This document shows, one piece after another, positions 10,096 to 46,969 of a stretch of DNA of 64,000 nt (positions are counted from its first letter, which is position 1; each line of letters begins with the position of its first letter). The notes under the pieces are model-generated. The model saw nothing but the letters and a program-made list of their open reading frames with translations, searched no databases and was not told where the DNA came from. The DNA comes from Antedon mediterranea (taxonomy: Eukaryota; Echinodermata; Crinoidea; Comatulida; Antedonidae). Position numbers and translations under genes: made by a program. The DNA is taken from NCBI RefSeq assembly GCF_964355755.1, contig NC_092671.1:37155304-37219303 (forward strand), in the 5' to 3' direction.

Positions 10096-10271
10096 ACTTC
10101 AAATGGCATTAATGGGCTTTCGTACAATTATTTATTTATCATGTGTTTTATAAATTGACCTACATATTCAATTTATAGAGGGCGCGCTATCAAACTAAAT
10201 ATTTTTAATAAAATTAAACCTGACTAGCCTAGGCCTCAACTTGTAGCATTTAAAGGCTACAGCAATTTAAA

Positions 10272-24882: not shown

Positions 24883-27138
24883 CTGTAAAATACAATACAG
24901 TATTTTTTTCAGTTAGTGTAAACTATAAGATGTATTCCAGAAGGAATGACAGAGTATGAGGATGCTCAACATAACCTTAATGTTGGCTTTGGATGGATGG
25001 CTAAGAAAGAATATAAGAAAATGGTTTCTAAAAATGTCTACAATTAAAAATAAAAGCAACCAACATAAACTACGGTAACGGTAACCTCTGTAAGTTTACA
25101 AAAAAAAATCCCATCATCGCTACTGTATAATACAAAGGTCAACAAATATACATAATGAATGTTTATGAGTTGAATGGGGTTAATTTTAATGATTATAAAA
25201 ATTGAGGCTGTCACAAATACAACATTCGTTATTTGCTTCATAACCGTCACACATTGTGTAACAACTTTTATTCAATTTCATGTATTGTAAATGGCGACAC
25301 CACGCAGTAGATATCAAGTCGGCTTTCACAAATATAACCCAACCTATCGTATCGAATACCATGATAAAACTGTTTACACAAAGCTAAGAAGAGTGGCCTA
25401 CAATAATATAGGGCCTACGTTCAATCGTTAAAAGGAGATTTACACACACCACAAATAGGTTAAGCTTCCAAGTTTATTCAGAGTATACATATTTACTGAT
25501 ACTGTACAAGCAATGCTAAAAACTACTAAAGCTTAATAATAAACTACATTTGGCCTCTTGGGGGCTACCACTCATATGACATCGCTGTATGAAAGGTCCA
25601 GTGTGTTGTCACAGGAGCCAGATCAAATGGTTGTTATTAAGTATATCGGTAAGGATGTAATAAGTGACATCCGTTAGGTAAATTGTGGAATTTGGGGGCA
25701 AAATAATTCCCCAGAATTATACCAGCCAAATTAGCGAATAACCTGAGTAACATATGAGTAGCGCCTGTGTTGAGTTAGGTGTTGGATGATGCCGGGGGAT
25801 GGCTGGGTGGGAAAGATTGAAAAGTTTGTACAACTATCGAACGGCTAATTTAAAAATGAAGTGTGCTAGTATGCATCTTAGTAAACAACTGAAAACACAC
25901 TGAATTCCCATTGGTTGCCAATTAGAAATTAGCCTATCCTACATTTTTGTGGTTCCACTATTAGATATACCCGTTGGTCTATAGAAATACATTGTCAATT
26001 ACTGTGGTTGGAACTTTGATAAAGTGTCTCCCTTGACTAACATTCCGTTTTAATTACCTGTAAAAACAATATACCATATTCGGCGCTAGTTCCGTTTCGC
26101 ACCTGTTTTTATTTCGACTTCCTTTTGACTCCAAATTGTTAAGCAACTTATTGTGAATACCACACCTTAAAATTGGCCTCATAAGTACTTTTATGAAGAA
26201 GAATCACATAAAAAGTAACAAATAAATCCTTAAATTGATGATTTTACAGACATGTTTCTCGCATACCGTTCGCGAATTTAGCATAGCGAAGTTCAATATT
26301 TTCGTTTCTATGGAGCGCCAAAAGAGCAACAACAATAGATGGTTAAAACCTCAGTGGAATGCGTCTTCTTTTAATGCATTTATTATTGAAATACACGTTT
26401 AATTTTAATATATTTTGTCAATAAAAATGCTGTAACATTTTACTACTAATAATTTGCTGTTTTCAAAAAGCAACCAACCCTAGGCCCACGAGTAAAGACT
26501 AGGCCTAGTACATGTAATATGATGATGAATTTGTCGATTTTCATTCCTAAAAGTTCCTGCAAAAACCATGTACAGTATTATTTTTTTTGCATTGACAAAA
26601 TATGATAAAATTGAACGTAATTTTCACCAATAATGCATTAAATATACGCAATTTACTGAGTTTTTAGCCCTCTATTATGATTGCTCTTTTGGCGCTCCAT
26701 AGAAACAACAACATTGAACATGCGAAATTCACGAACCGATGTGCGAGAAACACGTCTGTAAATTCATCAATTTAAAGGATTTATTTTTTACTTTTTGTGT
26801 GATCTCCTTCGTAAAAGTATTTTTGAGGCCTAATTCTAAGGTGTGGTACTCACGATAAAGTTACTTAACCAATTTTGAGTCGAAATAAACGACAGGTGCG
26901 AAACGGAACTAGCGCCCCATATTCATCCTAACACTTCTATTACTCTGAAATCTACCCACATTTATATACCACATCCTTAGTTAAAAGAAAGTACTTGTGC
27001 CGTGTATAAACTATAATTTATTACTTTAAATTTCCTGAAAATAATACATGGCTGGATACAAAAGATATTATCCATGTGTGTTATAATACACATTGTATAT
27101 AGAACCTTATTTTTATTATAGAAAAAGTTATTACTTAC
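24883..27138 (-). other. 5' UTR intron of TRIM copy 1, enlarged by insertions
   Basis: Acceptor cag abuts the ATG; the donor (ca|gtaagtaa on the minus strand) is at 27138. The paralogous introns of copies 2 and 3 are 648 and 625 bp; here the intron is 2256 bp because about 1.6 kb (roughly 25437-27020) is inserted, including the element at 26082-26916. Confidence 0.7.
26082..26916. mobile_element. 835-bp DNA transposon with ~250-bp TIRs and 8-bp target duplication
   Basis: Left end ggcgctagttccgtttcgca and right end gtgcgaaacggaactagcgcc are inverted repeats that run on for about 250 bp (cacaccttaaaattggcctc pairs with gaggcctaattctaaggtgtg). Flanks are the identical octamer CCATATTC at 26074-26081 and 26917-26924. 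No coding frame; non-autonomous. The TIR sequence matches no family I can name. Confidence 0.88.
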
Positions 27139-27195
27139 TGTGAAAATGTTGTAAACTTCAAAAGACTGTAAATATTCAGACGAACAAGAGTCTAA
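27139..27195 (-). promoter_or_regulatory. Noncoding first exon of TRIM copy 1 (truncated flank)
   Basis: Minus-strand donor cattttcaca|gtaagt is conserved in position in copies 2 (47618), 3 (56403) and 4 (63788). The exon sequence (inverse of gttgtaaacttcaaaagact, aatattcagacgaac) matches the others up to gacgaac, where the giant element begins. Confidence 0.65.
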
Positions 27196-30130
27196 ATGTC
27201 ATCCGTCAGGGCACCTATTTATTTTACGCATGCGCACTTAATTCCTTGGATAGATGGACCGCAATTCATAGATCGTATTTTACCATTTGCACAATTATTC
27301 GATTATTACAGTGTAAGTGCAACGCGATGGTGAAAGTTGTTCTCGTTTTACCTTTGTAATTTTCATGCAATTCCACTACAAAACCATGAATCATAATTTT
27401 AGCGTACTGTTGCAAAATTTTAATCTTCGAATAATCATAATTTGCTTATATTTAGTAATTTTATTGCGTCACGGCACCTAGTTAGCTCAGTGCTGAGTTA
27501 GCTACATGCACTGAGTTACCATACGTTGTTCGGTTCGATATGAACGAAGGTCTGAATTCACTATGAATCTGGTAGTGCCCTGACGGATGATAAGTATTAA
27601 TTGTCATCCGTGAGGGCACCTATATAGTTAACATACACGTTGTTTTCCGTTAACATACACGTTGTTAATTCACTCTGTGTAACTGGTAGTGCCCTGACGA
27701 ATGATAAGTATTAATTGTCAATCGTCAGGGCACCTATATAATAGTTATAACATACACGTTGCTAATTCACTGTGAAACTGGTAGTGCCCGGTCTGACGGA
27801 TGAAAAGTATTAATTGTCATCCGTCAGGGCACCTATAGGCCTAATAGTTATAACATACACGTTGCTAATTCACTGTGAAACTGGTAGTGCCCTGACAGAT
27901 GAAAAGTATTAATTGTCATCCGTCAGGGCACCTAAATAGTTAACATACACGTTGTTAATTCACTGTGTAACGTAGTGCCCTGACGGATGATAAGTATTAA
28001 TTGTCATCCGTCAGGGCACCTAAATAGTTAACATACACGTTGTTAATTCACTATGAATCTGGTAGTGCCCTGACGGATGATAAGTATTAATTGTCATCCG
28101 TCAGGGCACCTAAATAGTTAACATACACGTTATTAATTCACTCTGTGTAACTGGTAGTGCCCTGACGGATGATAAGTATTAATTGTCATCCGTCAGGGCA
28201 CCTATATAGTTAACATACACGTTATTAATTCACTGTGTGTAACTGGTAGTGCCCTGACGGATGATAAGTATTAATTGTCATCCCTCAGGGCACCTATATA
28301 GTTAACATACACGTTGTTAATTCACTCTGTGTAACTGGTAGTGCCCTGACGGATGATAAGTATTAATTGTCATCCGTCAGGGCACCTAAATAGTTAACAT
28401 ACACGTTGTTAATTCACTGTGAAACTGGTAGTGCCCTGACGGATGATAAGTATTAATTGTCATCCGCCAGGGCACCTATATAGTTAACATACACGTTGTT
28501 AATTCACTATGAATCTGGTAGTGCCTGACGGATGATAAGTATTAATTGTCATCCGTCAGGGCACCTAAATAGTTAACATACACGTTGTTATTCACTATGA
28601 ATCTGGTAGTGCCCTGACGGATGATAAGTATTAATTGTCATCCGTCAGGGCACCTATATAGTTAACATATCATGTTGTTAATTCACTGTGAAACTGGTAG
28701 TGCCCTGACGGATGATAAGTATTAATTGTCATCCGTCAGGGCACCTAAATAGTTAACATACACGTTGTTAATTCACTATGAATCTGGTAGTGCCCTGACG
28801 GATGATAAGTATTAATTGTCATCCGTCAGGGCACCTATATAGTTAACATATCATGTTGCTAATTCACTGTGAAACTGGTAGTGCCCTGACGGATAGGATA
28901 AGTATTAATTGTCATCCGTCAGGGCACCTATATAGTTAACATACACGTTGCTAATTCACTGTGAAACTGGTAGTGCCCTGACGGATGAAAAGTATTAATT
29001 GTCATCCGTCAGGGCACCTATAATAGTTATAACATACACGTTGCTAATTCACTGTGAAACTGGTAGTGCCCTGACAGATGAAAAGTATTAATTGTCATCC
29101 GTCAGGGCACCTAAATAGTTAGCACACGTTGTTAATTCACTGTGTAACGTAGTGCCCTGACGGATGATAAGTATTAATTGTCATCCGTCAGGGCACCTAA
29201 ATAGTTAACATACACGTTGTTAATTCACTATGAATCTGGTAGTGCCCTGACGGATGATAAGTATTAATTGTCATCCGTCAGGGCACCTAAATAGTTAACA
29301 TACACGTTATTAATTCACTCTGTGTAACTGGTAGTGCCCTGACGGATGATAAGTATTAATTGTCATCCGTCAGGGCACCTAAATAGTTAACATACACGTT
29401 GTTAATTCACTGTGTAACGTAGTGCCCTGACGGATGATAAGTATTAATTGTCATCCGTCAGGGCACCTATATAGTTAACATACACGTTGTTAATTCACTC
29501 TGTGTAACTGGTAGTGATAAGTATTAATTGTCATCCGTCAGGGCACCTAAATAGTTAACATACACGTTGTTAATTCACTGTGTAACGTAGTGCCCTGACG
29601 GATGATAAGTATTAATTGTTATCCGTCAGGGCACCTAAATAGTTAACATACACGTTGTTAATTCACTATGAATCTGGTAGTGCCCTGACGGATGATAAGT
29701 ATTAATTGTCATCCGTCAGGGCACCTAAATAGTTAACATACACGTTGCTAATTCACTGTGTGTAACTGGTAGTGCCCTGACGGATGATATAAGTATTAGG
29801 CCTAATTGTCATCCGTCAGGGCACCTAAATAGTTAACATACACGTTGCTAATTCACTGTGAAACTGGTAGTGCCCTGACGGATAGGATAAGTATTAATTG
29901 TCATCCGTCAGGGCACCTATATAGTTAACATACACGTTGCTAATTTACTGTGAAACTGGTAGTGCCCTGACGGATGAAAAGTATTAATTGTCATCCGTCA
30001 GGGCACCTAAATAGTTAACATACACGTTGCTAATTCACTGTGTGTAACTGAGTGCCCTGACGGATGATATTAAGTATTAGGCCTAATTGTCATCCGTCAG
30101 GGCACCTAAATAGTTAACATACACGTTGCT
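27196..30130 (+). repeat. Left inverted terminus: unique end plus ~28 subrepeats of ~91 bp
   Basis: Each unit reads tcatccgtcagggcacct, a tagttaacatacacgttg spacer, taattcactgtg, ctggtagtgccctgacgga, tgataagtattaattg. The words catccgtcagggcac and gtgccctgacggatg in one unit are exact inverses, so single strands fold at two scales. Twenty-eight units were counted between 27590 and 30130. The outermost end of the element contains the same catccgtcagggcac word. Confidence 0.92.
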
Positions 30131-30804
30131 AGAGCACACATGGTCATATTTGATACTACTGTATTACTGTTATTAATTGTAATGTTTATACATTATTTAA
30201 GGAGTTAAATGATTGTGTTAAGGTTGTAGGATAATTGTGAGCCATATCGATAAAAGTATTTGACGCAGATACAAATGTTTTAGAACTATAATAACTTTAT
30301 TGTAATAAACTGGGAATAAACTATACAAAGTACACATCTACACAGTAGGAATAAATGGAAGAGTGATTCACATAGAAGAATGTTATCTATGTTAAGGAGT
30401 GAGCAAAGCAATGATGGATTGCTTCGTGGTCTGGGGACAGTTCCAGTATAAACTTTCACTTATCATCTATGGGTGAATGACGAGTAGGCTATTGGAAACA
30501 TTTATTGTACTGTACAATGAGAGCAAATTTTAACAGATTGTTAAATATGGTATGATTGTATGATTGCTTGAATAAAGATTTTCTGAATAAAAACTAATCC
30601 TGCATTAATCTCACATTTGTTCATTGCTTTGACTATTTAAGAAGCTGAAACTTAAATAAAACCACGCGTGATTATAGCCAACGTTAAAATAAAATTAACT
30701 ATATCTAGTTGGTTTTTGTGATGCTTTTATTCTACAGTATAATTATGTAGTCATATAACATCAATAAATAATAAAAAATATATAATTCAAACAGTAATAA
30801 AAAT

Positions 30805-30885
<81 letters not shown>

Positions 30886-31154
30886 TATGTAATAGGTTAT
30901 CATATACTTTTAAGTTACTGTAGTTTGCGACCTTATTTTATGTAGATTCGAGCCCAAGTGTATAAATACATGTAAAAGTGAAGTGAAACAGTGATATATG
31001 CGGATTGTTTTTCCCTCCAAAACTTTTTATTACAACAAACACTCCTAAATTGACGCGATGATGATGCGGGAGAATTAAGCGAATGGTTAAAGATTGATCA
31101 TCGCTTTTAATATTATCAAGTTTCATATTTTGGTGACTACGTACCAGCAGATCA
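30131..31154 (+). other. 5' flank of the transposase gene inside the giant element
   Basis: AT-rich sequence between the left array and the ATG at 31155. It contains a long (ta)n run at 30806-30883. No core promoter motif can be assigned with confidence. Confidence 0.5.
30806..30883. repeat. (TA)n microsatellite
   Basis: About 78 bp of uninterrupted ta dinucleotides upstream of the transposase gene. Shorter (ta)n runs occur in its introns at 37095-37127 and 38675-38734, the latter after a (tc)n run. Confidence 0.95.
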
Positions 31155-34100
31155 ATGTCGGAAACATCAAGTCCTAATAGACAGACGGTGGGGTTAGCAT
31201 CTGAAGAACATGATGAGGAGGTCCCATCCTTACTGCCTAGGCCTACAACTTGTCAATGGAAACCGGGAGATAAATTACACGTGCTTATAAGTACTTGTTC
31301 TGAACTTGAGGAGCTAAAGTCTTCATTCGAAATTGAAACTAACACAAGCTTTGTTAAAAGTAAAACGTTTTCATGTTTTGGAGAGACTGGTAATATTTTT
31401 AATTGTTTATTATGCTTTAAGCTTATTAATATATTACGCTTAATTTTGTGGCGTGTAGAGGGGAGGTTGAAAGGAGGGGTATAGGGGTTGAACACCGTCT
31501 CGCATCGTGCGGGACGGTCCCGTATTATAAAAGTGATTTTCTAAGGAAATACGCATTTTCAACACGTGCCTGACCACATTTCTGTTTTTATTTTAATTTT
31601 ACATCTAGCCCAAAGCCCCAACACACCCATGATTCCACCATTTTTATACATTGCCAGCCGATTCTGCTACTATAGCAAAATCGGGTCACATTGCGGTGGA
31701 TAGATTACCAATATTTGTAAATATGTATTCATTTTTTACATCAGAGAATGCAAATTTATAAATTTTAGGCGATATTGTCAAAGGTCAAGCGCCTAGCCTG
31801 CCACATTTAGATATTCAATATTGTCCGGTGTCACATTCTTAAAAGATTGCATACGACCCTCTATAAATAATGAAAAAAATACACTAAATAATATAGTCCA
31901 GAAGCACAAGAGCATAGCCGGAAATGTGATTTACGGCCATCTAGAGGGGAAAAAATTCCGGCCTAAAGTATGGATCCACTAACCAAGATCCACCCAGCCA
32001 TTGAACCTGGTTACAGCCCGGTCAATAAATTCATTCTAAACACAAACCATCTATTATAGTAAATTCTCAATCCAACCACCAATAAATAAATGAGAAAATA
32101 TAAATTAGAGCCAACTCCTTTTATCAATATGCCATACCCATACATTGTATTCGTGTTAAAGATAAGTCATCGTCGTATGCTTAAGCAACCGATAGCAAGA
32201 ACTATATTGTGTTTTGAACCTGTTTTGAAGGGTAGGCTTATAATATAAATGATATTTTTTATTCGTATCGATTTCTTTTACAGAAATAAAAGACAAACCA
32301 CACAAACTCCTCTGGAAATCCGATATCATAGTTCATCCATATATAGTTTTAAATACTGAGCGGTATATATGCCACCACGGACCACAAAGGAAAAAGGATG
32401 AAGCAGAAGTAGTAAGACACGAAGTGCTCAACATTATAATTAATTAAGGACTTTTTGATGATGAAAATGATGATGTTAATGATGATAATAATGATGATGT
32501 TAATGATGATAATAATGATAATGATAATGATGGTGATGATAATAGAATGATGGCGATGATATTGATAATGATGGTGATAATTATAATAATGATAATGAAA
32601 ATGATGATAATCGAACAGCGAGAAACTCCCGAATTGATGAGTACTATTTTGTAATTCGTCGTGTTTATAAACTAAATAACATTTAGGGTTTAGGGAGTGG
32701 AGTTTACATCCATTTTTATATATATTTTTTTAAATATCGACACCAAAATTAATATTGTCCTAACAAAAAATTACTTTCCCTAAACCCTGGTTTAATACAA
32801 ATACAACTTATTATACATTAATATATAAAATATATTATACAATATGCAAATTTAAAAATATTGAACAAACCATGTTACAGATCATTCAACCAAATGTTTA
32901 TAAAGAGTAGTTTTAAATAATATGATGCGATAGGGAGCGGATATCAAACATAATGTTGTTTATGGTCACCCTGATAAGGTTAAACAAAAATATAATTGTC
33001 ATCATCACTTTAGAAATCATTATTATCATTCATTAGTATTAATCATTATTATGATTATAACCATTATCAATTCACTAACATCATATAATAATTTATAGTT
33101 GTACTACTGTGTTTGTGTAAATGTATGATCTACATTTTAACTTCAGTGTAAGGACCATGAATACGGTAAACGACGAATTCGTTTGCAACCGTAAAAAAAA
33201 CTTGCATGTCCGGCTTCTGTTGTTGCAAGAGAAATAATTGTCTTCACAGACTTTCAGGTGAGAAACCATAGCTCATGCATAGAAAAGGGATTAATTTTAA
33301 GCCTAAAATTGAAAAATAAATATTGATTTATCAGATTTGTAATAATTATTCTGGTTCCGAATTGAAATATATTATTTAGTGTTATTTTTGCATTGTACTT
33401 CGTCTATGTATAGCGATAGGATGATGGAGGTGCAACATTATAAAAAATGCGTATAATTGCTAACAGTATCTCACTTTAAAATATGTAGTCTAGTTTACCA
33501 AAATGGAAAAGAGACAGAGCAGCAAAGAAAATCAAATTAAATCTACATAAAGAAGGCACGGACTTGAAGTTTCAGCGAAAGATTTATGTATTATTGCCAG
33601 ATATTTCCGAACACAAGAATCATTCGCATGGAATAGTAAGTTCAACAATTATATCAAGTTTAATCTTTTGATTACCACATTTGTCCGAACTGTATTTGAG
33701 AACTTTTACCATACAAACTCTTGGTGTATATTTTTTTACGTGAGTTCGTCTCCCTTTTATTTTCATATACATTTCTTTCTCTTTATACATTTTCAGGCTG
33801 AGGAAATGTCGCTTTCAATTGACCCTCGAATAGTGGCAAAATCAGAAGAATATGTTTCTGAGGGTTTCCTATCTTCAAATTTAATAAGATTACTACTAGA
33901 GGCATACGTGAAGAAGGAGTTGTTTTACGGCCAAAACTGTCCATCTTGGACAAACAGGAGATTTTTTCCAAGTCGGAGAGACATCACAAACTTAGTCTAC
34001 AGCAAACGGCAAAAAATGATAAAGAATAAATTCGATCAGGAAAACCTGATTTCTAGCATATCGGAGTGGCGTACGGATTGTCCTGATGACAACTTCCATT

Positions 34101-37095
34101 TTGAGCCATCAACCACAGCCTATTCTGATTTCCTATTCATTTTCCAATCAAAGTTTCAGAGGCAACTTCTGAAACGTTACGGAGGGGAAGTATGCCTACT
34201 GGACGCAACATATCGAACAACCCGATACGCTGTGCCGATTTTCTTTTTGTGTGTAAAAACAAATGTGGACTATTGTGTTGTCGGCGTTTTTGCCACTATA
34301 CACGAAGACCATGAAACAATCGCAAGGGCTTTGAGTAAATTCAAAGACTGGAATCCTGGATGGAATCCTCCTTTTTTCATGGTGGATAACTGTGAGGCGG
34401 AAATTAAGGCCATCGAACAATCATTCCAAGGTAGGAATTAAGCCTACATTTCATAATTTCAAGAACTGAGATTTCATTTATAAATTAAAATCAGGATGTT
34501 GGCATGGTGTAGACGATAACGATGGTAATGTTAGACGGTTGGATATAAATACATACTTTGCCTTGTTTTTTCAGGTTGCAGAATTTTTCTCTGCGACTTC
34601 CATAGAGAACAGGCGTGGATCCGCTGGTTAAAAGCAGGTAAGCATAAGCTTAACCATTCCAGCGATGATGTCCTCACTTTATTGCGAAACATCGCCAAAG
34701 CTGAGACTGTGAAGCATTATAATGCTTCTGTACAAGTGCTTCAGTCTAGCACCTATTGGAAGTCGAATATGGCATTTAGGAATTGGATCACTAATGTATG
34801 GTTAAAACACTCGGAGGTAGGTAATCAACTTTATTTATATTTAACCATACAATCTGCAAACAATTTATTGAGTTAAGATTCAAATTAACGCGGTAATATC
34901 AAAAACATTACAAAAATTATTCCAGTTTTGTGTGTGTGTGTGTGTGTATTATGGTCTTTTTGAAAAGTATTGTATACAATTAAACCGCAGTGTATTTTTC
35001 CCATTTACATTATGTCTAGTCGATTACATTTGTACAATATTTACATTTTCGGTTTATATTTTCATTTCTTCTAATAGAAGTGGGTTTGGTGTTATCGAGT
35101 CAACAGATTTAATTTGAAAGTAAACACGAACAACGGTGTTGAAAGGCAAAATCGTACATTAAAATACGATTACCTACGAACTTATACTGACCGTACGTTA
35201 ACTGGTATGCTGAAGACAGTTATCAAACATTATTTGCCGGAAATGCAGCGAAGGTATATCATTCTTTGAAATGACCGTTATGCCTTGTTAATTTGTTAGT
35301 GTGACTGGACCAGCTGGTCATATGAAATACAGTTGTAAGAAGTTAATATTAATTGCCACTTATTTTTTGCTTTATTTAGTTATGTAACTTTTTTACCCAT
35401 CAGATATGTCAGAAGCAATATCACTGCCTCGTCTGCATATCGAAAGTACAACGAACGTCTTCCAAAATTTCTTCATAATCGACCAAGGCCATTTTTAGAC
35501 CACTGTAGAAAGCGGCTGACCGACCAGACAGAAATTAGCCCTTTTCTAAAGGAGACAGCACCAGGTTCATTTGTAGTGCCAAGCCTTTCATCGTCGTTGT
35601 CAACCTACACACTAGATCTTGGAAATCATAACCACTTGCCATCATGTGGATGTTATGATTTCACTCATACGCACTGGCCATGTAAGCATATGTTGGCAGT
35701 TGTTGTCCACCACCCTGACTATTCCTGGAAAAGCCTTCCTGCTCATTACAGGAATCACCCGATATTCACCCTTGATGAGGATGTGGTTTCAGGACTCGAT
35801 GATGACATTTTGGAGGACATTTCCGTAATTGAGGAAGATTGTGAACCAATATGCACAAAGAGTGAATTTTCCAATAAAACATCTGAAAAAAATACAACAC
35901 TACCAGAGAGCATCCGTGGAGTAATTGGAAAGATCCGCAGTATGACATACCTTCCACTGCCAGTGGATATTCTTTCAGAAACAAAGCAGAAATTAGAAGA
36001 AATCTATGTGAACATTTGGACTCAGCTGCCAAAGGAAAGTGGTATCCCTGTCACCCAAATAAACCCAACCGTGGCCGAAGCAGAAAAACTACCATTTGGT
36101 ATTAGCAGTGGTTTAAGAACGGGTAATAAAATGTTATTGTCATTATGTTAGTTGTATACATGTACTTACGCTGTGCAAACTTTTAGATTATATATTTTTA
36201 TTCACAGACCTCGGGAAGAAAAGAACCAATTCCGTATGTCAAGCTACAAAGAGAAAGTTATCTAAGTGTAAGTCGTATTGTCATCAAGCATTACCATGAA
36301 CATCGAGTAAGTTTTTGAACAAGTTGAACAAGCTCATAATTAATTTTTATTGATATTTCAGGGCGTTACAGTAACAATGTAGGCCCACCAATGGAAAAGA
36401 AAAGGCTTAAAGACCTTCCATTAAGAAAACGACGGAAACCCAATGTTCAGGTACACTGCAAAGATGAGGCAATAAGAATTCCTGAAGAACCTAGTAAGGC
36501 AAAAAAAATTGGTAAGTTATTAAGACTACCATGGAGTATTTACATATATACTGAAACATAACTAATATAAGTAACACATCACAAACTCTAGAATAACGAA
36601 AAAACGTTTGTTTGTAAACAGCCAAGGCCTTACTCAAAGGAACAAACTTCCTATTATTATAAAACAAATCAAACATTTTGTTCAATTTAGGAAAGAGTTA
36701 TAGAAATATCTTTTATTTAAATATTAAACCCTTTATTGTATTATATAGTACTGTTGCTTCATATTCTCACTTGTTCTTATTATTTTTTGTAACCATGTTA
36801 AAAGGCCAATTCAACTGAGACAAGTTTACTTCTAGATTGGTCCTCATTTTATGCTCTGTGCTATTCGATGAAATAAATGAATGATCAATTTTTTTTCCAT
36901 TTAAACATTTAAACAAGGCATTGAAAAGAGCTCCTCAAAGAGAAGAAAAGGCATCTCTCAGTACAAGGCTTGTGCAATTCCTCTTACAATGCCAAGTATG
37001 TTCATTGGTAACCTTAGAGCTTAAATAAAAAAAAAAAGTAGTAACAATACATATTCTAAATCCATATGCATTTTAGGTAAACTAACCGCCTGGTA

Positions 37096-37129
<34 letters not shown>

Positions 37130-38658
37130 TATATATACTTCTATAAACTCATTTATTTATGTTTTGATGATGAGAAACAGCCACCCAACTCATGAGCATA
37201 ATTCTCAGCCTTTTTAATAACCTGTCTTTATAATCCCACTAGTGTGTAGTCGTTGTGTGCCCATTATCCCAAAGGAAAGCATCAATTCTAATGGTGTGAT
37301 TGATTTTAATTGAATGTAAAATGGTATATACCGTCATTATTTAATTACTTACTATTCATTTATTAACATTTTCAGATGATTCTGTTATTAAAGATTTGGT
37401 AGAAATCGCTAAAACACATAAATATGTTCCCCACAAAATAAAATATGGGGCCGAAGTGACAACCCCAGCACATGGATTGGTGCTAGAGGCTCTCCGATCA
37501 GACGAAGAGGTGTACGAGGCAAGATACCTACAATTATGTTCACGTGCCTCAGAATTGTTGCCAGGTGAGGTAGGAGATGCAACAACAATAATGCAGGTGG
37601 TTGTTGCCCTCATCTCAATAATTCAAACCGAAGGGCTCTCAATTGAAGAAGTAAACGAAACTATAAGTTTGAAACCATCGCATCTTCAACTCACAAGAAA
37701 ATGTGAAAAATCCCTTAGAGGTAAACTAAAAGTTGGAACAACTTCACTCACTTATAAAGATATGGGAACATTACGTCCAGGCAAGTGGTTGAATGACCAG
37801 GTAGGATTGTCACCAAGTGGCCACCATTGAGAGGCCCACTGTGTTGAAATTTGATATTAAAAAATCTAACTAAATATGCAATAAGTAATAATTTAATGTA
37901 ACAATAAATAAATTTACCAACATTTGAGTTTACCAAGTTTCGATCCTTATAATTAAACATTTTTATTTAATTGCAGGTTATCCATGCCTATCTTAACTTG
38001 CTAAAGAACGAATATTGTGACCAGCTCTTTGTCCTGCCTTGCTTCCTAGCCTTGAAATGGGGAAGGAAACAATATGAAGATTGGTTGTATGAAAAGATAA
38101 CGTTAGTGTTTAACTATTAGCAGTACTGTCGATCATTATCAACTTTACATGTTATATATTTTACAATTATTTTTGTTATTTTAAGGATGGTTTGGAATCC
38201 TACGAGTGGGTAATGCTTCCAATTTGTTACAATAGACATTGGTTTTTGTTAGTAGCCAACAATAAAAAGAAAACCATTGGAATCATTAACTCTGTCAAGA
38301 ATCATAACACAGAAAATACTTTCATTGAGCACTGGGGGTAAATACTTATATCAAATTCTCATGCCTTCGTATTGATCATAGATTTAAGATTATGATTTAC
38401 CACAAATCAGAAATATGTTTTTATATACATAGGCCTATAAGGTATAATAAACGATAAAGATGAGTAAATCTGTGAGATTCTGTTAGAATGAGAAGAAGTC
38501 TTTCCAATCGGGATTCAGACCAGGAACCTTCTGCTTGATATGTAGATTTCTTAATCATTAGACCACTGGGGCTTTCGCAGTATTGTTCAAATTCGCTTGG
38601 ATAGCGACACTTTAACACAGCACTAGTCACTCTTTCCGCCTCTCCCCTCCCCCACCCA

Positions 38659-38737
<79 letters not shown>

Positions 38738-39282
38738 CGAAACCTTATACAGTATGATTTTTTTTATCATTATATTATCACAGAAGATTCCTAAGAGCAA
38801 GGTCAAAGTTGACAGGGTTTGAGCATCAGACGTACACACCAATAAAGTATAATTCGGGTATGCAAACGGATGGCAGCAGTTGCGGTATTTTCGTACTTAT
38901 GGTAAAGTTAATACAATATATACAGTACAATTGTTCCTAATTTAGATATAATTAACATCAATAAAAATGCAATACATAGAGTGATCGATTTATACCGTTG
39001 TAATTGTAGAATGCCGAAGCAATCATGGCATCTGTACGGCCAAGGGTTCTGCGACAGCACCATTGTCCTGCCTACAGGATTTACATAAAAGAACGGCTCA
39101 TGCAGAATTCAACAGCAAACAAACATGAAATGTGCGACTTGCCATTTTGTACTAGACCTTCAGGCAGCAACGTAAAATGGGTGCAGTGCGATAGTTGCCA
39201 ACGATGGATGCATTTTGATTGCTGCAAGGTAACATCCGTAAAGGATGATTATGTATGTGTCATGTGCAGTGAAAATGTGTAA
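31155..39282 (+). CDS. Composite MULE transposase-SWIM-Ulp1-PHD protein, 16 exons, one in-frame stop
   Basis: Exons: 31155-31389, 32284-32411, 33147-33257, 33489-33635, 33797-34430, 34575-34816, 35078-35253, 35404-36122, 36208-36267, 36362-36511, 36918-36995, 37376-37800, 37977-38105, 38186-38337, 38784-38901, 39010-39282; phases agree, 3777 nt, 1258 codons. Cys/His finger about 108-205 (CHHG, CKDH, CPAS, HKNHSHG), FLYWCH/GCM-like. MULE transposase: D343 (LLDATYRTT), D404 (FMVDN), C425-x2-H428 (CDFHREQAW), E521 (TNNGVERQN). SWIM 639-653 (CGC...CKH). Lys/Arg-rich linker about 790-890. Ulp1-like C48 domain: GKWLND at 1029-1034, H1096-W, N1113 in place of the usual Asp, Q1156-x5-C1162-G. PHD 1210-1254 (C4HC3). 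Codon 137 (33192-33194) is TAA: inactivating, or spliced differently. The exon 13 donor (gtgttt) is weak. It should mobilise the surrounding element; the protease part may cut SUMO-like conjugates (inference). Confidence 0.85.
32455..32605 (+). repeat. (ATGATAATG)n simple repeat in transposase intron 2
   Basis: About 150 bp of irregular gatgat/aataatgat words. Confidence 0.9.
38488..38605 (-). repeat. tRNA-derived SINE fragment in transposase intron 14
   Basis: Minus-strand head agtggtctaatgattaag with B-box-like ggtctgaatcc, same family as 20681. A younger insertion into the giant element. Confidence 0.5.
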
Positions 39283-40320
39283 TTACATTTGTGCACTGAC
39301 AATTAATATAAATCTGTTTACTTAATTCAGAGTTTTTTACCTGAACAAAATGAAAATTTAAAAAAAACATGTTGGAAAGGGTTTGCCTGAGAGATGAAAG
39401 AAAAAGATTTGTAATACCAGATTAATACAGTATGTAAATAAGGTTACCTTTAGGCTTACGCTTTTAAACAAAATAAACAATGCATTAATAGATGATAGTT
39501 ATGTGATCAGCAAATGTAAACATTTCTAGTTATCAAAATTGACGGGGTTAAGTTGCTTATTAAAATGTTTTACAAAAAAGGGTACTAAAATGTAGGCCTA
39601 ATGTGTTTTTGAAATTGAATATTTAACCATGTTCTTGAATATTTCAAATGTCATTACAAACGGCAGATTTGTAATAGTATCGTACAGTAAATGTTTTTTT
39701 TCTTCAATCCATTAAAATAATTATTTTTGTACTTTATATACACTTTTAAACAAAACGAATACGATTTTGGTGAGTTATATAGTTATACAGTAGTTGTTTA
39801 TTCAAAATGTTTTACAAAAAAGAGTACTGAAAGAAAGACTTACTGTGTTGAACAACAAAGACGAATACATTTTTTTTATTGGAAAAAAATATGCCAAGTG
39901 TTTTTAAAAGGAAGTGTCTAGAGGCAAGTTCTTAAATATTTCTGAACATGTCATTACAAACGATTTGTAATAGTATCGTACAGTAATTTTTTTTTTTCAA
40001 TCCAATAAATAATTATTTTTGTGTTTTATATACGCTTTTAAACAAAAACGAATAAGATTTTAGGGAGTTATAGTTCGAAAATACCCGATGCATTATAGAT
40101 GATATAGTTACATGTGGTCAGTAAACGTAGTAATAAATATTTACGGGTCTAAGTTAGTTGTTTATTAAAAATGTTTTACAAACAAGGGTACTAAAAAGTA
40201 GGCCTACTGTGTTAAACAACAAAAGACAAATACAAATTAAACAAAATATGTCAAGGTTTACAAACGAGAGATTTGTAATAAATGTTCAATAAATGTTTTA
40301 TTTAATCCAATGAAAATAAG
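39283..40320 (+). other. 3' flank of the transposase gene with three diverged repeats
   Basis: A possible AATAAA is at about 39470. A block (ttattaaaatgttttacaaa, agggtactaaaa, gtgtttttga..., catttgtaatagtatcgtac) recurs at about 39555, 39800 and 40160, spaced 243 and 361 bp. It joins the right terminal array at 40321. Confidence 0.6.
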
Positions 40321-42765
40321 TTACACAGTGAATTAACAACGTGTATGTTAACTATATAGTTGCCCTGACGGATGAAAATTAATACTTATCATCCGTCAGG
40401 GCACTACCAGATTCTTAGTGAATTAACAACGTGTATGTTAACTATTTAGGTGCCCTGACGGATGACAATTAATACTTATCATCCGTCAGGGCACTACGTT
40501 ACACAGTGAATTAACAACGTGTATGTTAACTATTTAGGTGCCCTGACGGATGCCAATTAATACCTATCATCCGTCAGGGCACTACGTTACACAGAGTGAA
40601 TTAACAACGTTTATGTTAACTATATAGGTGCCCTGACGGATGACAATTAATACTTATCATCCGTCAGGGCACTACCAGTTACACACAGTGAATTAATAAC
40701 GTGTATGTTAACTAAATAGGTGCCCTGACGGATGACAATTAATACTTATCATCCGTCAGGGCACTACCAGTTACACAGAGTGAATTAACAACGTGTATGT
40801 TAACTTTATAGGTGCACTACCAGTTACACACAGTGAATTAATAACGTGTATGTTAACTATATAGGTGCTCTGACGGATGACAATTAATCCTTATCATCCG
40901 TCTCAGGGCACTACCAGTTACACAGTGAATTAACAACGTGATATGTTAACTATATAGGTGCCCTGACGGATGACAATTAATACTTATCATCCGTCAGGGC
41001 ACTACCAGTTAGGCCTACACAGTGAATTAACAACATGATATGTTAACTTTATAGGTGCCCTGACGGATGACAATTAATACTTATCATCCGTCAGGGCACT
41101 ACCAGTTAGGCCTACACAGTGAATTAACAACATGATATGTTAACTTTATAGGTGCCCTGCCTGACGGATGACAATTAATACTTATCATCCGCCGTCAGGG
41201 CACTACGTTACACAGTGAATTAACAACGTGTATGTTAACTATATAGGTGCCCTGACGGATGACAATTAATACCTATCATCCGTCAGGGCACTACCAGTTA
41301 CACAGAGTGAATTAATAACGTGTATGTTAACTATATAGGTGCCCTGACGGATGACAATTAATCTTTATCATCCGTCAGGGCACTACCAGTTAGACCTACA
41401 CAGTGAATTAACAACATGATATGTTAACTTTATAGGTGCACTACCAGTTACACAGAGTGAATTAATAACGTGTATGTTAACTATATAGGTGCCCTGACGG
41501 ATGACAATTAATCCTTATCATCCGTCAGGACACTACCAGTTAGCCCTACACAGTGAATTAACAACATGATATGTTAACTTTATAGGTGCCCTGACGGATG
41601 ACAATTAATACTTATCATCCGTCAGGGCACTACGTTACACAGCGAATTAACAACGTGTATGTTAACTATTTAGGTGCCCTGACGGATGACAATTAATACT
41701 TATCATCCGTCAGGGCACTACGTTACACAGTGAATTAACAACGTGTATGTTAACTATATAGGTGCCCTGACGGGTGACAATTAATACTTATCATCCGTCA
41801 GGGCACTACCAGTTACACAGAGTGAATTAATAACGTGTATGTTAACTATTTAGGTGCCTTGACGGATGACAATTAATACTTATCATCCGTCAGGGCACTA
41901 CCAGATTCTTAGTGAATTAACAACGTGTATGTTAACTATTTAGGTGCCCTGACGGATGACAATTAATACTTATCATCCGTCAGGGCACTACGTTACACAG
42001 TGAATTAACAACGTGTATGTTAACTATTTAGGTGCCCTGACGGATGACAATTAATACTTTTCATCTGTCAGGGCACTACCAGTTTCACAGTGAATTAGCA
42101 ACGTGTATGTTATAACTATTATAGGTGCCCTGACGGATGACAATTAATACTTTTCATCCGTCAGGGCACTACCAGTTTCACAGTGAATTAGCAACGTGTA
42201 TGTTATAACTATCATAGGTGCCCTGACGGATGACAATTAATACTTATCATTCGTCAGGGCACTACCAGTTACACAGAGTGAATTAACAACGTGTATGTTA
42301 ACGGAAAACAACGTGTATGTTAACTATATAGGTGCCCTGACGGATGACAATTAATACTTATCATCCGTCAGGGCACTACCAGATTCATAGTGAATTCAGA
42401 CCTTCGTTCATATCGATATCCGAACAACGTATGCTAACTCAGTACATGTAGCTAACTCAGGACTGAGCTAACTAGGTGCCGTGACGCAATAAAATATAAG
42501 CAAATTATGATTATCCGAAGATTAAAATTTTGCAACAGTACGCTAAAAGTATGATTCATGGTTTTGTAGTGGAATTGCATGAACATTACAAAGGTAAAAC
42601 GAGAACAACTTTCACCATCGCGTTGCACTTACACTGTAATACTAATACAGTAATCGAATAATTGTGCAAATGGTAAAATACGATCTATGAATTGCGGTCC
42701 ATCTATCCAAGGAATTAAGTGCGCATGCGTAAAATAAATAGGTGCCCTGACGGATGACATTTAGA
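40321..42765 (-). repeat. Right inverted terminus: ~22 subrepeats plus unique end
   Basis: Inverse of the left terminus. Twenty-two subrepeats (gtgccctgacggatgacaat ... catccgtcagggcacta, spacer acgtgtatgttaac) were counted from 40330 to 42400, then the 400-bp mirrored unique end. Some units are partly deleted (about 40805, 41438). Array length differs from the left arm (22 against 28 units), so the arms expand and contract independently. Confidence 0.92.
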
Positions 42766-42868
42766 CTCTTCCAGCCTAGTAGACTGGAAATGTGAACAGT
42801 CTACTTCCGATCAGTTATTTCCTGATGTTAAGGGATTCCCCTGTTAAGTACCAATTAGTTCGAGTTGA
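42766..42868 (-). promoter_or_regulatory. Severed upstream flank of TRIM copy 1
   Basis: Begins agcctagtagactggaaatg and cttccgatcagttatttcct, matching 56535-56600 next to TRIM copy 3. In copy 3 this lies just upstream of the noncoding first exon; here it is 15.6 kb away from the rest of its gene. Confidence 0.6.
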
Positions 42869-42869
42869 G

Positions 42870-43068
42870 TTTACATATCTCGTGTTATGTTGACAACGCT
42901 CGAGTTGAGTTTACACATCGCTCGTGTTATGTTGACATCGCTCGAGTTGAGTTTACACATCGCTCGTGTTATGTTGACATCGTTCGAGTTGAGTTTACAC
43001 ATCGCTCGTGTTATGTTGACATCGCTCGAGTTGAGTACTGTATACATATCGCTCGTATTATGTTGACA
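42870..43068. repeat. 42-bp minisatellite, five units
   Basis: Unit tcgctcgagttgagtttaca, catcgctcgtgttatgttga. A large array of the same repeat is at 58885-60475. Its frames stay open because 42 is a multiple of 3. Confidence 0.9.
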
Positions 43069-44803
43069 CACATGCGCAACAGAGATAAACATTGATACAC
43101 GCCCTCATCTTCCAGTATATTGGGCAAGAAGAAAAAAAAACAATTAGATAAATAAAAAAAAGGCACGTTCATTAATTTATTTTTATTTTGAATTTTAATC
43201 GTTTTAACAGTATATTACAGAGCCTATGACGTTTTTGTAATCTGCATTTTAATTGTTTTTAACAATATTTTAACGTAGGCCTAAATAGTATTTTAAAATT
43301 GTCTTTTGCAATTTGATGTATTTTTCTTTGTTATTTTATTGTCTTAATTTATATGCCAAGCAAAACGAATTTCCATTTTAATTTTTGTTTTGTTTTGTGT
43401 CCTTTTTTTGAAAATTAAAAAAACTTTGAATGAAAAGCAGAAAATTGTTTTATATATGTGAAAACATTCACGAAAAGATTTTGTTGAAGATTAGCAAGAT
43501 ATTAGTTTGTTCAATAAATTGTTGGTAAGACTTTGAAAAACATTTTGTTGGCATATTCATATTGTTTAATCATTGTACGATGAAAGTGCTAACATTAATA
43601 AAGATAAGGTGGACAGTAGAATACTGAATCTTGCAGGCCATTAAACCTGACATTTAAAAAGGTAACAACAACATTATATTATGTTTTCATCATCTTATAG
43701 TTACTAAGTCAATAATCTAAAAGTTGCATTGTACATGAAATAGCTCTTTACTTCTAACAATTGCTATAATCCATATAATAATACAAATCCCTTTTACTAT
43801 TTTTTAAAATAGCCTTTATTATACTTAAATACAGTATTGTTAATTTTATTTACAGTAATATAATAATATTATTATGAGGCCTATACAAGTTTTTATTTCT
43901 GTTACCAGTGCGATTCACAGTCACCACTATGTCTTCTTCGGTCAAGATTTTATAATAATAAGTAAAATAATTATTATCTTATTATTGGGTAACATGTATA
44001 TAAGGCAATTATACTAGTGTCAATATTAATATTATTATGTAACTTCTTATTATAGAGAACCCTTGGGGACACCTTAAAGAACTAACAAGCGTTCTTATTA
44101 TAGAGAACCCTTGGGGACACCTTAAAGAACCAACAAGCGTTCTTATTATAGAGAACCCTTGGGGAAACCTTAAAGAACCAACAAGCGTTCTCTTTTAAAG
44201 AGGTGTCCTCTGAATCAGTATTAAAATAGTAAACATATTATTACCCAATCAGTCGTTTTGCGGTAAAGTGTCTCCTTAATAGGGGTATCCCGTTTAGGGG
44301 GTCTCAAATTAGGGGTTGTACTATAATTAAGAAACCTGTGTAAATTAAACAACAAATTCCACAGATCACAAAGTTACTGTATCGTGTTATCTGTATAACC
44401 TTTTATAATGTATTCCCAAACCCCTCCCCTCCACCCTCACATTAGAATACACAGTACGTAATAAAAGATATTAATTTGTACACTAAAATAAAAAAAAAAT
44501 TTAAAGTAGAAATATTAAATACTAAACATCCAATTTTTATACACTTTATTAAAATAAGGTCATGTGATTGTGTCTTACGTAGTTAAATGTAAAAACATAC
44601 TTTTAATTAATTTTATAATTAAACAAAAATTAATATTTCCAAATATTAAGATAACAACAGAACATTTAAATACACAACTTAAACAATTAAGACATAAATG
44701 GTAATAATTTAGTTCGTGTACACTTGCTTTAATAATGTGATTGTTCCTGATCTGTTCTGATTACGAACATTTAACATAAATGTTTTCATGTTTTGTAGTT
44801 ATT
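43069..44803. other. Paralogue of the COPS8 3' flank with a decayed exon 7 remnant
   Basis: Sequence from cacatgcgcaacagagataa onward aligns to 21028-22713. At about 43354-43425 the COPS8 exon 7 region is reduced to its flanks: atgccaagcaaaacgaattt is followed by an internally deleted stretch and only tgtgtcctttttttgaaaat remains, so no exon. 44044-44187 holds exactly three 48-bp units. Then comes the 3' flank of TRIM copy 2. Confidence 0.65.
44044..44187. repeat. 48-bp minisatellite, three units
   Basis: Unit starts ttcttattatagagaaccc and ends gaaccaacaagcg; 144 bp. Single copy at 22097 and fourteen copies at 52352 in the paralogous positions. Confidence 0.92.
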
Positions 44804-46969
44804 TTAATAATTAAATATTTTTACATTGTTTGATCTGTGGTTTGCCACTACAGCTCTCCTTGGTCTTTCTGAGATTGCAGCCATCCCACATGGAGTATCC
44901 AACCCATCATCTTTGTTATCTATTCGTTTAATGAATTTACCATTTTGATCAAATAGTTGTAGTTTATGATTACTGGATACTATCATATTCCCACCCATAT
45001 CTATGGTTATGCCATGAGGACACCAGACGTTACCATCTTCTGTACCGTAGCCTACAAGAATCTTAATCAGCTTATCATTACCATCAAACATTTGTATTCT
45101 GCAATTTCCAAATTCAGCAACAATCAAATGACCATCCTTTGTTACAGCAACATCTTCTGGTTTTTTCATTTGACCGGCTTCACTACCTTCAGAACTTATC
45201 TTTCCCAGTAGACTACCATCATCAATATTGAATTTAAACACACAGTGACATTCATAATCTGCTACATATAACATCCTGGTCTTTTGGTTTACTGTTACTC
45301 CCATTGGATATTTTAATACTCCTTTACCAAAGGTTCGGATTTCATGATATTGATTATCACACATTACAACACATTTACCTAAATCATCACTATACACCAT
45401 GTGACCATTGCCTATTAGATGCGTTTGATTGACTTGTACATTTTGTGGTATTCGTATCTTAGAAACAAAACCACCTGATTGATCAAACTTTATTAAATCT
45501 TTACTGTAACTTGATACCAACATACATCCATCAGTATCCAATACTACGTCTGTCACCTTATCTTCTTTATCATGTTCTTTATACTCTGATATGATGTTTG
45601 TGGTATGTACAAGTCCAAGAGGTTCCACCTTGATACTCACTGGTGAACCTATGACATGTAACAAATCTCCATCAGTGATATCCATTTGCCAATCCCCTTC
45701 CAAATTGCATCTACCTGTTACTGTGTATTCTCCCTTTCTGTGTACTACTTCAGTGGCTGATTTCTCACCTGATGAGTTGCTTAGTGTGGCTGTTAATTGA
45801 CCAACATCACTCTCTGCTAGAATTGATATTCTCACACTAAATGGCTGTCCTTTTGTAACTGAAATGTTCTCATCTTCTTTATTAACCTTGTATATACCAC
45901 CAACAGTGATAAGTTTACCAACACCTTCATGATTCATCAACTCAACCAGTTTTGGAGATGGAATAAATTTTAGTGTAATTCTTGTTTTAGCAAATGATTT
46001 ATCCAATTCATCTGCTGCAGCGTCATTCTCAACTACAGTGATAGTTGTCTGGTATGATGCAAGGTTTTCTGTTTCTGTTGGTTTATTCATTGTTTTCTTG
46101 ATTGATTCCATCAACGTGTTTACTTGTGTCAGCTTTGATTCAATACTTTTAACTTGACGATCAATAACTTTGCTTTGTTCTTTATAAATCTGTGTAATAT
46201 TTGCCATCATTATCTTCGTTTCTTCCTTCACCTTTCTGATAATTTTACTCTCGTGAATTTCAATCGCTGTTCTGCTTAACTTTAAATTAGATTCAAACTC
46301 TGATCTCTCTTTAGTAATAACATCTAATTTCTCTTTTAGTTGTCTCTTAATGCCTTCAGCTGTCTTCATAGTTTCAGTAACAGTTTTGTTGATGTCATTC
46401 AGAGCTGTCTCCATTGGTATCACCTTGTGTTGATTTCTATAACAACTGAGAATATGTTTGCAATCTTCACATGCAGGAAGTTTACATGTACGACAGTAAT
46501 CTTCCAGCTTTTTATCCGGGTGATTTTTGCAGTTTAGTGAATCTTCACTTTGTTCTTCTATGTCTGTATCCAGTGTGTATAGTGGATGGTTCGCCAGCGC
46601 AGGGAACATCTTATGATGTTGGATGCATTGCCTACACATATACATTTCACATTCAGAGCAATAGTCCTGAGGTTGATTCGCACATCTTGAGCATGCTTCT
46701 GGTTTTTCGGATTCAATCTTCTCAACGTATTCAACTAGGTAACTGATTGTTTCATTGCACTTCAAATGTTTCAAAGCACCATCTTTAAGATCGTACGTCT
46801 GACGGCATTTTGGACATCGTATCTTGCCGTGTCTTCTCATCAAATCTTGCAGGCAGTTAAGACAGTAAATGTGAAGACAGTTAAGCGCCTTTGGATCTGT
46901 GAATCTTTGTAGACAGATTGAACATTCCAGATCTCTTTTGTCAAAAAACTTTACTGTTTTAGCAGACAT
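44804..46969 (-). CDS. TRIM-NHL E3 ubiquitin ligase-like protein, copy 2
   Basis: 721 aa, one coding exon, same domain order as copy 1 (RING, two B-box clusters, coiled coil, filamin-type domain, NHL propeller). All eight RING zinc ligands are kept. It lacks one Leu near the N-terminus (MSAKTVKFFDKRD). It shares with copy 4 the versions HIYCLNCL, ETALNDINKTV and VWCPHGITIDMGG, so copies 2 and 4 are sister genes. The ATG is again immediately preceded by a splice acceptor (tttacag); the donor of the upstream noncoding exon is at 47617 (aag|gttagt). Confidence 0.93.
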   Translation of the reverse strand: MSAKTVKFFDKRDLECSICLQRFTDPKALNCLHIYCLNCLQDLMRRHGKIRCPKCRQTYDLKDGALKHLKCNETISYLVEYVEKIESEKPEACSRCANQPQDYCSECEMYMCRQCIQHHKMFPALANHPLYTLDTDIEEQSEDSLNCKNHPDKKLEDYCRTCKLPACEDCKHILSCYRNQHKVIPMETALNDINKTVTETMKTAEGIKRQLKEKLDVITKERSEFESNLKLSRTAIEIHESKIIRKVKEETKIMMANITQIYKEQSKVIDRQVKSIESKLTQVNTLMESIKKTMNKPTETENLASYQTTITVVENDAAADELDKSFAKTRITLKFIPSPKLVELMNHEGVGKLITVGGIYKVNKEDENISVTKGQPFSVRISILAESDVGQLTATLSNSSGEKSATEVVHRKGEYTVTGRCNLEGDWQMDITDGDLLHVIGSPVSIKVEPLGLVHTTNIISEYKEHDKEDKVTDVVLDTDGCMLVSSYSKDLIKFDQSGGFVSKIRIPQNVQVNQTHLIGNGHMVYSDDLGKCVVMCDNQYHEIRTFGKGVLKYPMGVTVNQKTRMLYVADYECHCVFKFNIDDGSLLGKISSEGSEAGQMKKPEDVAVTKDGHLIVAEFGNCRIQMFDGNDKLIKILVGYGTEDGNVWCPHGITIDMGGNMIVSSNHKLQLFDQNGKFIKRIDNKDDGLDTPCGMAAISERPRRAVVANHRSNNVKIFNY

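Follow-up and report, generated by a model that had tools for sequence, protein, structure and literature searches.

A gene-bearing and probably disabled copy from a Foldback-type Mutator-like element family with hairpin-array arms in the crinoid Antedon mediterranea

Introduction

In a 64,000-nucleotide stretch of the Antedon mediterranea genome (assembly GCF_964355755.1, contig NC_092671.1, positions 37,155,304 to 37,219,303 of the forward strand; hereafter the window), a multi-domain gene lies between two long, mirrored repeat arrays. The question raised by this locus is whether gene and arrays make up one mobile element, and if so of what kind. The original prediction, made from the letters alone, was of a Foldback-type Mutator transposon in which a single polypeptide combines a transposase with SWIM, Ulp1 and PHD domains. 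Our analysis indicates that the element is almost certainly a Foldback element of the Mutator-like element (MULE) superfamily, and the explanation that we consider probable as a whole is that the copy in the window is a gene-bearing member of such a family, now probably disabled. The animal origin of the DNA is also visible in the genome itself, where Wnt sequences, which are not known outside animals, gave 38 matches at E up to 0.001, against none in any of 14 control genomes.

Arms and hairpin arrays

The element is 15.6 kb long, with arms of 2.95 kb (left) and 2.45 kb (right); its features are collected in Table 1. It was found that the window contains 1011 inverted pairs, the longest of 397 nt with 99% complementarity and partners 13.5 kb apart, and the inverted arms are far above chance. 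The outer 375 bp of the left and right arms were 98.1% identical over ungapped columns, or 92.8% by BLAST with gaps counted. An element had been predicted at 27196-42765, and one is present there, but its limits had to be corrected to those in Table 1. The inverted match spans 27186-42770, and sibling copies run two bases further at each end, whereas the window copy does so on the right only (42772). These outermost bases are GG...CC in the gene-less copies; the window copy has the CC on the right and AC as the left pair.

The left array consists of 25.2 copies of a 90-bp unit, as counted by Tandem Repeats Finder (TRF). Counted on both strands with up to 2 mismatches, a 16-bp core, TCATCCGTCAGGGCAC, has 54 left-arm and 41 right-arm sites; neither the 10.2-kb middle of the element nor any other part of the window contains one. 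When the 58.6 kb of non-arm sequence were shuffled 20 times by mononucleotides, a single match appeared across all shuffles. Arranged head to head, the cores make 25 pairs on the left and 19 on the right. Two cores of the terminal block GTCATCCGTCAGGGCACC, face to face with a short loop between them, make up a 46-bp hairpin, and a 182-nt stretch of array folded as single-stranded DNA reached −46.9 kcal/mol (z −11.4; 0 of 200 shuffles were as good). A search of the genome (354 Mb in 18 contigs, with the window on contig C2) for this 46-bp sequence, allowing up to 3 mismatches, gave 163 matches (72 and 91 by strand), and the reversed control gave 0. The element therefore has the long inverted termini, with internal tandem repeats of variable number and able to fold back, that characterize Foldback elements, as well as the terminal inverted repeats (TIRs) of a MULE. 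The predicted mirrored termini of a Foldback-type Mutator were in this way borne out, with the cores confined to the arms.

Table 1. Features of the element in the window (aa, amino acids; positions are those of the window)
Feature	Position	Strand	Remarks
Whole element	27186..42772	.	Bounded by inverted termini AAGAGTCTAAATGTCATCCGTCAGGGCACC
Left arm	27186..30131	+	~375 bp outer TIR, then tandem array
Right arm	40319..42772	-	Mirror of left arm: 19 head-to-head core pairs and outer TIR
Single gene (putative)	31155..39282	+	16 inferred exons, 1258 codons, one in-frame stop
Exons 1-8	31155-31389, 32284-32411, 33147-33257, 33489-33635, 33797-34430, 34575-34816, 35078-35253, 35404-36122	+	
Exons 9-16	36208-36267, 36362-36511, 36918-36995, 37376-37800, 37977-38105, 38186-38337, 38784-38901, 39010-39282	+	
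ALS2CR8-type N-terminal domain	32301..34000	+	aa 85-275, exons 2-5; Pfam E 3.5e-29
In-frame TAA, codon 137	33192..33194	+	From exon model; inside N-terminal domain
RNase H-like MULE catalytic core	34139..35143	+	Pfam; candidate acidic residues D343, D404, E521
SWIM zinc finger	35642..35707	+	aa 638-659; Pfam E 1.5e-5
Ulp1/C48 domain	37783..39090	+	aa 1030-1195, exons 12-16; Pfam Peptidase_C48 1.3e-16
PHD finger	39145..39267	+	aa 1214-1254; Pfam 2e-4, 21.8 bits, just under cut-off 24

The gene and its protein domains

The exon model was built from GT-AG sites and homology, and the gene and its protein are predicted from sequence. A gene of 1258 codons with 15 introns had been proposed; the codon count and 16 exons stood, but the frame contains a TAA at codon 137. 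Splice phases in the window join the whole frame, codon 137 being the sole break. Because two relatives, one at C4:14.16 Mb (with a stop of its own nearby) and one on C6, read a residue at this site, the stop looks derived.

A Pfam search of the protein, run as two pieces with an X at the stop position, found the MULE, SWIM, Ulp1/C48 and PHD domains in one predicted gene, as had been claimed, the PHD finger falling slightly under its cut-off. Residues 322-428 matched the ZSWIM1-3 RNaseH-like (2.3e-13) and MULE (7.3e-8) models, and the PF10551 score of 33.2 bits (cut-off 27.6), together with 46.7 bits for the C6 relative, identifies a MULE-type DDE transposase. The C6 relative and known MULE motifs served as guides in choosing the candidate acidic residues in Table 1. 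No P-type transposase with a THAP domain was present among the Pfam matches up to E 1; the comparison with FB and Galileo of the P superfamily that had been drawn earlier holds as an analogy only.

The nearest solved relatives of the Ulp1 part are yeast Ulp1 (PDB, 6.3e-11) and SENP2/SENP1. In the window copy, H1096, Q1156 and C1162 of the catalytic set are kept and the Asp position is N1113, whereas the C6 relative has all four residues, Asp included. An active SUMO protease has a His-Asp-Cys triad plus Gln, and from its residues the window copy would lack part of this set.

The PDB fingers nearest to the PHD finger of the window were those of KDM5B (2.0e-9; the matched chain is presumably its third PHD finger) and KDM5A (4.8e-6), and W1225 and W1234 line up with the KDM5A finger's two Trp. 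KDM5B was also the top match of the C6 finger (3.5e-6), in which both Trp are in place. By alignment, a two-tryptophan cage of the KDM5A PHD3 type is thus predicted in both the window and the C6 protein. The KDM5A PHD3 finger is described as reading histone H3 trimethylated at lysine 4 (H3K4me3) via a cage of just two Trp (PMC9814790).

The ratio of nonsynonymous to synonymous substitution rates (dN/dS, NG86) between the window gene and four relic copies was 0.47, 0.50, 0.62 and 0.81; against the C4:14.16-Mb relic it was undefined, with synonymous sites saturated. The gene appears to have been under past constraint, probably weaker over the protease end.

A second family with the same gene type

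A second element was found on C6 via protein searches (C6:9157143-9170366; 13,224 bp). It begins GGTAAGCGTTATATGGGCACCAGTCGTGCA, is flanked by the 10-bp duplication GAAAACATAA, and has at each end an outer terminus of about 340 bp and an array of 69-bp units, the two in inverted orientation (TRF: 9.8 copies at 4732-5413 and 9.1 copies at 16324-16954, in joined-locus coordinates). Its gene, on the minus strand, gave matches to ALS2CR8 (5.5e-27), MULE (4.6e-12), SWIM (0.015), C48 (7.1e-13) and PHD (1.1e-5) in the same order as in the window; it is known from matched segments, and those used lie in open frames. A long tblastn alignment of the transposase core put the identity of the C6 and window proteins at 34%; exon segment 316-424 gave 45% and the Ulp1-PHD part 37%. 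Termini of the C6 family were present at three further loci, and C5:14.94 Mb retains part of the 5′ interior.

Sites of the C6 terminal block, counted with up to 2 mismatches, numbered 12 in the left arm and 11 in the right, with 0 in the middle and 0 in the flanks. Therefore, the arrays in both families repeat that family's own terminal block. No other evidence links gene and arrays as strongly as the fact that two divergent families share both the gene type and self-repeating ends, which supports the interpretation that gene and arrays form one mobile unit.

Because both families multiply a block that starts a few bases inside the ends, we read the arrays as amplified transposase sites, an interpretation that we lean towards rather than insist on. 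An alternative is that the hairpin arrays are by-products of silencing or of satellite growth by unequal exchange, and that they now yield double-stranded RNA or hinder replication without a role in transposition. Strongly folding hairpins would indeed give double-stranded RNA if transcribed, array length varies among copies, and Tetris arrays have been described as building blocks of a Drosophila virilis satellite (PMC4079207). Such by-products would, however, leave the multiplication of each family's own terminal block unexplained, and in Galileo transposase binding sites are reported within the repeated TIR units (PMC3688188). We consider this alternative unlikely, although it is the one that survives best.

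Gene-less copies of the window family

A genome-wide search with the outer terminus gave 34 match rows, in which 12 ends matched the query in full or lacked only its first five bases. These 12 ends make up five paired copies (the window, C3, C5, C10 and C8) and two unpaired ones (C8:7.507 Mb and C7:9.857 Mb), the partner of each of the latter being absent in the DNA stretch read around it. Because full outer termini recur at seven places, an assembly artefact was ruled out.

The paired copies on C3, C5, C10 and C8 are 5561, 3425, 2516 and 2924 bp long, respectively, and lack the gene: arm sequence covers 99.8-99.9% of them and the element middle 0%, and a protein search of the four gave no match to the window protein. 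Their array length varies. Perfect 9-bp duplications, ACTGAACTC, GCTAGGCTA and TATTTGCAC, lie outside GGAAGAG...CTCTTCC in three of the four, and the flanks of the C8 copy (TTCCAAAGC and AACCAGAGC) agree at 6 of 9 bases. The target-site duplication of 8-11 bp (usually 9 bp) that is typical of MULEs is therefore found in sibling copies as well as in the C6 element (10 bp).

The outer termini of the window and C3 copies were 100% (left) and 99.5% (right) identical, and those of the C5 and C10 elements, one of them flipped, were 100% (C5-left/C10-right) and 99.7% identical. This near-identity suggests that the arms-only elements moved fairly recently. Gene-less copies of this kind are as expected of non-autonomous derivatives.

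Evidence against the proposed explanation

Several observations weigh against a gene-bearing Foldback MULE family, beginning with the distribution of the gene, which is present in only one of the five paired-end copies. Gene relics on contig C4, with 75-97% DNA identity over matched pieces, had no arms in the fetched DNA, where inverted-repeat and arm searches were made. Relics of the transposase part (C4:14.475, 14.49 and 14.50 Mb) and of the Ulp1-PHD part (C4:13.35 and 31.858 Mb) had no arms of the window family. Over most of 37415-39610 the 31.858-Mb relic has about 95% identity to the window; pieces are kept to about 40104-40213, and the relic ends roughly 100-215 bp short of where the arm would begin. 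At C4:14.16 Mb the domain order and strand are kept, and no arms were present within the 33 kb read. Thus, the expectation that gene and arrays travel together was upheld by the C6 element and by the domain order at C4:14.16 Mb, but not by the four arms-only copies or the armless C4 relics. Decay would explain the loss of arms in these relics, and gene fragments moving by other means would also fit.

The remaining points concern individual features. A search for a target-site duplication of the window copy, reaching about 600 bp out on either side and allowing up to two mismatches, found none, and the left end of this copy is altered (AC in place of GG); on these two grounds it may be a rearranged copy. 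Together with the stop at codon 137, they also put its own mobility in doubt. The dN/dS values of 0.62 and 0.81, which belong to the Ulp1-PHD part, are a weak sign of selection there, and the Asn at the Ulp1 Asp position is common to the window copy and the C4:31.858-Mb relic. In the C6 protein, the SWIM match is below the cut-off, and the fingers next after KDM5B are of the ING type, with KDM5A at only 0.0072. The heptamer GGGCACC shared by the two terminal blocks is possibly due to chance (about 2%, an after-the-fact count that was not simulated).

Other relatives of the gene and side observations on the relic loci are as follows. In the 20 kb read at a relative at C4:22.2 Mb (36%), the transposase and the SWIM region were matched but Ulp1 was not. 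The rows of transposase-core matches lie on C4 in 8 of 14 cases, and the four arms-only paired copies are on C3, C5, C8 and C10. Beside the Ulp1-PHD relic at C4:31.86 Mb is a 235-bp inverted repeat pair (4738-4972 and 5105-5339) with 99.6% identity; the hairpin, spacer and termini of the window family, used as queries, gave no match at this locus. On viral contigs, two stretches fit the search pattern and no relative was confirmed.

One gene or two, and transposase or passenger

The C48-transposase fusion is indicated by the C48 match and the open splice phases, and its order is kept in the C4:14.16-Mb and C6 relatives; the predicted product is very probably a fused single polypeptide. That two adjacent genes have been joined in error, the first a MULE transposase (roughly exons 1-8), the second an Ulp1-PHD gene (exons 12-16), would account for the relics in fetched DNA that consist of the Ulp1-PHD end only (two) or the transposase end only (three). 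The linker exons 9-11 are also short (60, 150 and 78 bp), and no convincing match between them and the C6 element was seen. Nevertheless, two separate genes would not be expected to have splice phases that join throughout, codon 137 excepted, or to keep the same order and strand at C4:14.16 Mb and on C6, and we regard this arrangement as improbable.

A passenger or domesticated host gene that ended up inside an arms-only Foldback element, with a different transposase moving the arms, would fit the lack of the gene in four of the five paired copies, the C4 relics without arms in the fetched DNA, and the lack of a detected target-site duplication around the window copy. Yet the supposed passenger encodes a MULE transposase, and the gene-less copies bear MULE-typical 9-bp duplications. 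The C6 element, with quite different ends, has this type of gene enclosed by arrays of its own and a 10-bp duplication, and a stop codon with mostly degraded siblings is unlike a kept host gene. We therefore consider a passenger very improbable, and retain the interpretation that the gene belongs to a Foldback MULE family.

Comparison with known elements

Each part of the element has known relatives, and what looks unusual is the combination, the kilobase hairpin arms and the KDM5A/B-like PHD finger. That the parts are without precedent in animals was not supported by comparison with the literature. Mutators of hydra and lancelet encode Ulp1, according to the Ginger study, which cites Repbase reports (PMC2836005). 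These MuDR-type elements resemble the window in joining an animal Mutator transposase to Ulp1; long hairpin-array arms are not mentioned in that source, and the comparison is by description only. According to the legend of its Figure 1e, the Ulp1 and PHD domains from both Ginger1 and Mutator transposases are aligned there (PMC2836005). Ginger1 elements themselves have a C-terminal Ulp1 in several families, and both Ulp1 and PHD in one listed family, Ginger1-9_HM, but they differ from the window in their Gypsy-integrase-type core (PMC2836005).

Animal Foldback MULEs have also been described. Muta1/Phantom of Aedes aegypti is a type-2 Foldback element according to its authors, with a terminal palindrome and subterminal tandem repeats; it is active and transposes in yeast with short repeated ends, and gene-less derivatives were mobilised there (PMC5225508). 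Duplications of 8-9 bp are given for 14 Aedes MULE families in the same source. In contrast to the window element, Muta1 has a 504-residue transposase of a FLYWCH-bearing family and nine 12-bp repeats in place of kilobase hairpin arrays, and the words Ulp1 and PHD are absent from the main text (PMC5225508). The Mutator/Foldback family Tm1 of root-knot nematodes shares with the window 9-bp duplications, arms of variable repeat number and gene-less groups alongside transposase-bearing ones, but has repeats of about 14 bp and a 496-residue Phantom-like transposase, and the words Ulp1 and SWIM are absent from the main text (PMC3169594).

Plant MULEs with Ulp1 go by the name Kaonashi. Those described from Arabidopsis, maize, rice and melon share MULE and Ulp1 with the window and differ in belonging to plant lineages (PMC2836005). 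Also from a plant is FARE of Arabidopsis, which is referred to as a Foldback element whose transposase has a MULE domain (PMC3169594). Galileo and FB of the P superfamily have Foldback-like long ends, the repeats of which hold extra transposase sites, whereas the Galileo transposase is of the P type with a THAP domain and has no MULE core (PMC3688188).

Assignment to Rehavkus, a MULE-related group, in place of MULEs in the narrow sense must also be weighed, since Rehavkus elements in the literature have a PHD finger, a minisatellite and duplications of 9 bp (PMC6446971). The published TIRs of the group measure 26-400 bp, the minisatellite lies ahead of the 3′ TIR, and neither kilobase arrays at the two ends nor an Ulp1 domain is listed (PMC6446971), a comparison by description only and so a weak one; the Pfam MULE model, on the other hand, scored above its cut-off in both the window and the C6 relative. 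We find a Rehavkus identity highly doubtful, and continue to treat the element as a MULE. Zisupton/KDZ as a home, considered because a SWIM finger and Ulp1 are ascribed to these elements, was rejected, since the MULE match and the duplications of 9-10 bp found here argue against it. The words Ulp1 and SWIM are absent from the main text of PMC12730594, in which duplications of 8 bp are given for Zisupton and of 7 bp for Kyakuja.

TIRs are given as 14-500 bp in the text of a survey and up to 640 bp in its table (PMC6446971), and element lengths in an arthropod survey were 1.4-10.0 kb (PMC13359780). Relative to this literature, the kilobase arms and the total lengths of 15.6 and 13.2 kb are new, as are hairpins of head-to-head terminal cores, the union with a long Ulp1-PHD transposase and the occurrence of that union in two families. 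Foldback ends together with an Ulp1-PHD transposase were not described in the titles and abstract starts searched, with Repbase and most subscription papers outside this search, and a database-only twin of the element is possible.

Proposed mechanism

Given a MULE core and duplications of 9-10 bp, the obvious mechanism is cut-and-paste transposition, in which insertion would occur by a 9-bp staggered cut; this step is well supported. The N-terminal ALS2CR8-like module would bind DNA and the RNase H core would cleave the strands. The transposase would recognise the terminal 18-bp block, and each arm would offer dozens of extra binding sites, raising the local transposase concentration and favouring synapsis. 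The gene-less, arms-only copies would have been moved in trans.

The Ulp1 part probably strips SUMO, or a tag like it, either from the transposase or from factors that act at the ends in chromatin or repair, a plausible step against which the window copy, without the usual Asp, has to be set; an effect of Ulp1 on repair factors is suggested in the Ginger study (PMC2836005). That deSUMOylation takes part in transposition is possible, if somewhat short of likely. The KDM5-like PHD finger would plausibly steer the complex to H3K4me3, i.e., active promoters, because the finger is nearest to those of KDM5B and KDM5A and both cage Trp align. As judged from these residues, the transposase may read H3K4me3 through the finger, a suggestion that we hold tentatively.

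A broader hypothesis, possible and in our opinion rather doubtful as a whole, is that these giant Foldback MULEs would make up an animal lineage of their own, with a chromatin-guided transposase that combines a KDM5 PHD3-like H3K4me3 reader and an Ulp1 deSUMOylase in one polypeptide. The arrays would have amplified their own block separately in at least two families, as head-to-head hairpins in one, and would act as sponges that let arms-only elements outcompete their gene-bearing parent. If right, the readings proposed here would tie in the reason that unrelated superfamilies bear Ulp1-type proteases (PMC2836005), help to explain the huge Foldback ends of some elements, and bear on how MULEs reach open chromatin. 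In maize, Mu insertions are reported at sites that bear epigenetic marks of open chromatin (PMC2774946). With two divergent families in one genome, each of these claims is open to comparative testing.

Surroundings of the element

Four long, similar and uninterrupted frames of 656-732 residues are present on the minus strand of the window (22717-24912, 44807-46999, 53612-55807 and 61002-62969). They have RING- and B-box-like cysteine patterns and are TRIM-like by eye, and the element sits between the first two of them. A tandem duplication of this TRIM-like cluster might account for the missing target-site duplication of the window copy. The window also contains long minisatellites at 9113-10150, 52192-53055, 58902-59846, 42860-43068 and 44044-44191, some of them open in several frames. 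One minisatellite, with a 42-bp unit, begins about 90 bp to the right of the element, and the 48-bp unit at 44044-44191 is similar to the array near 52.2-53.0 kb.

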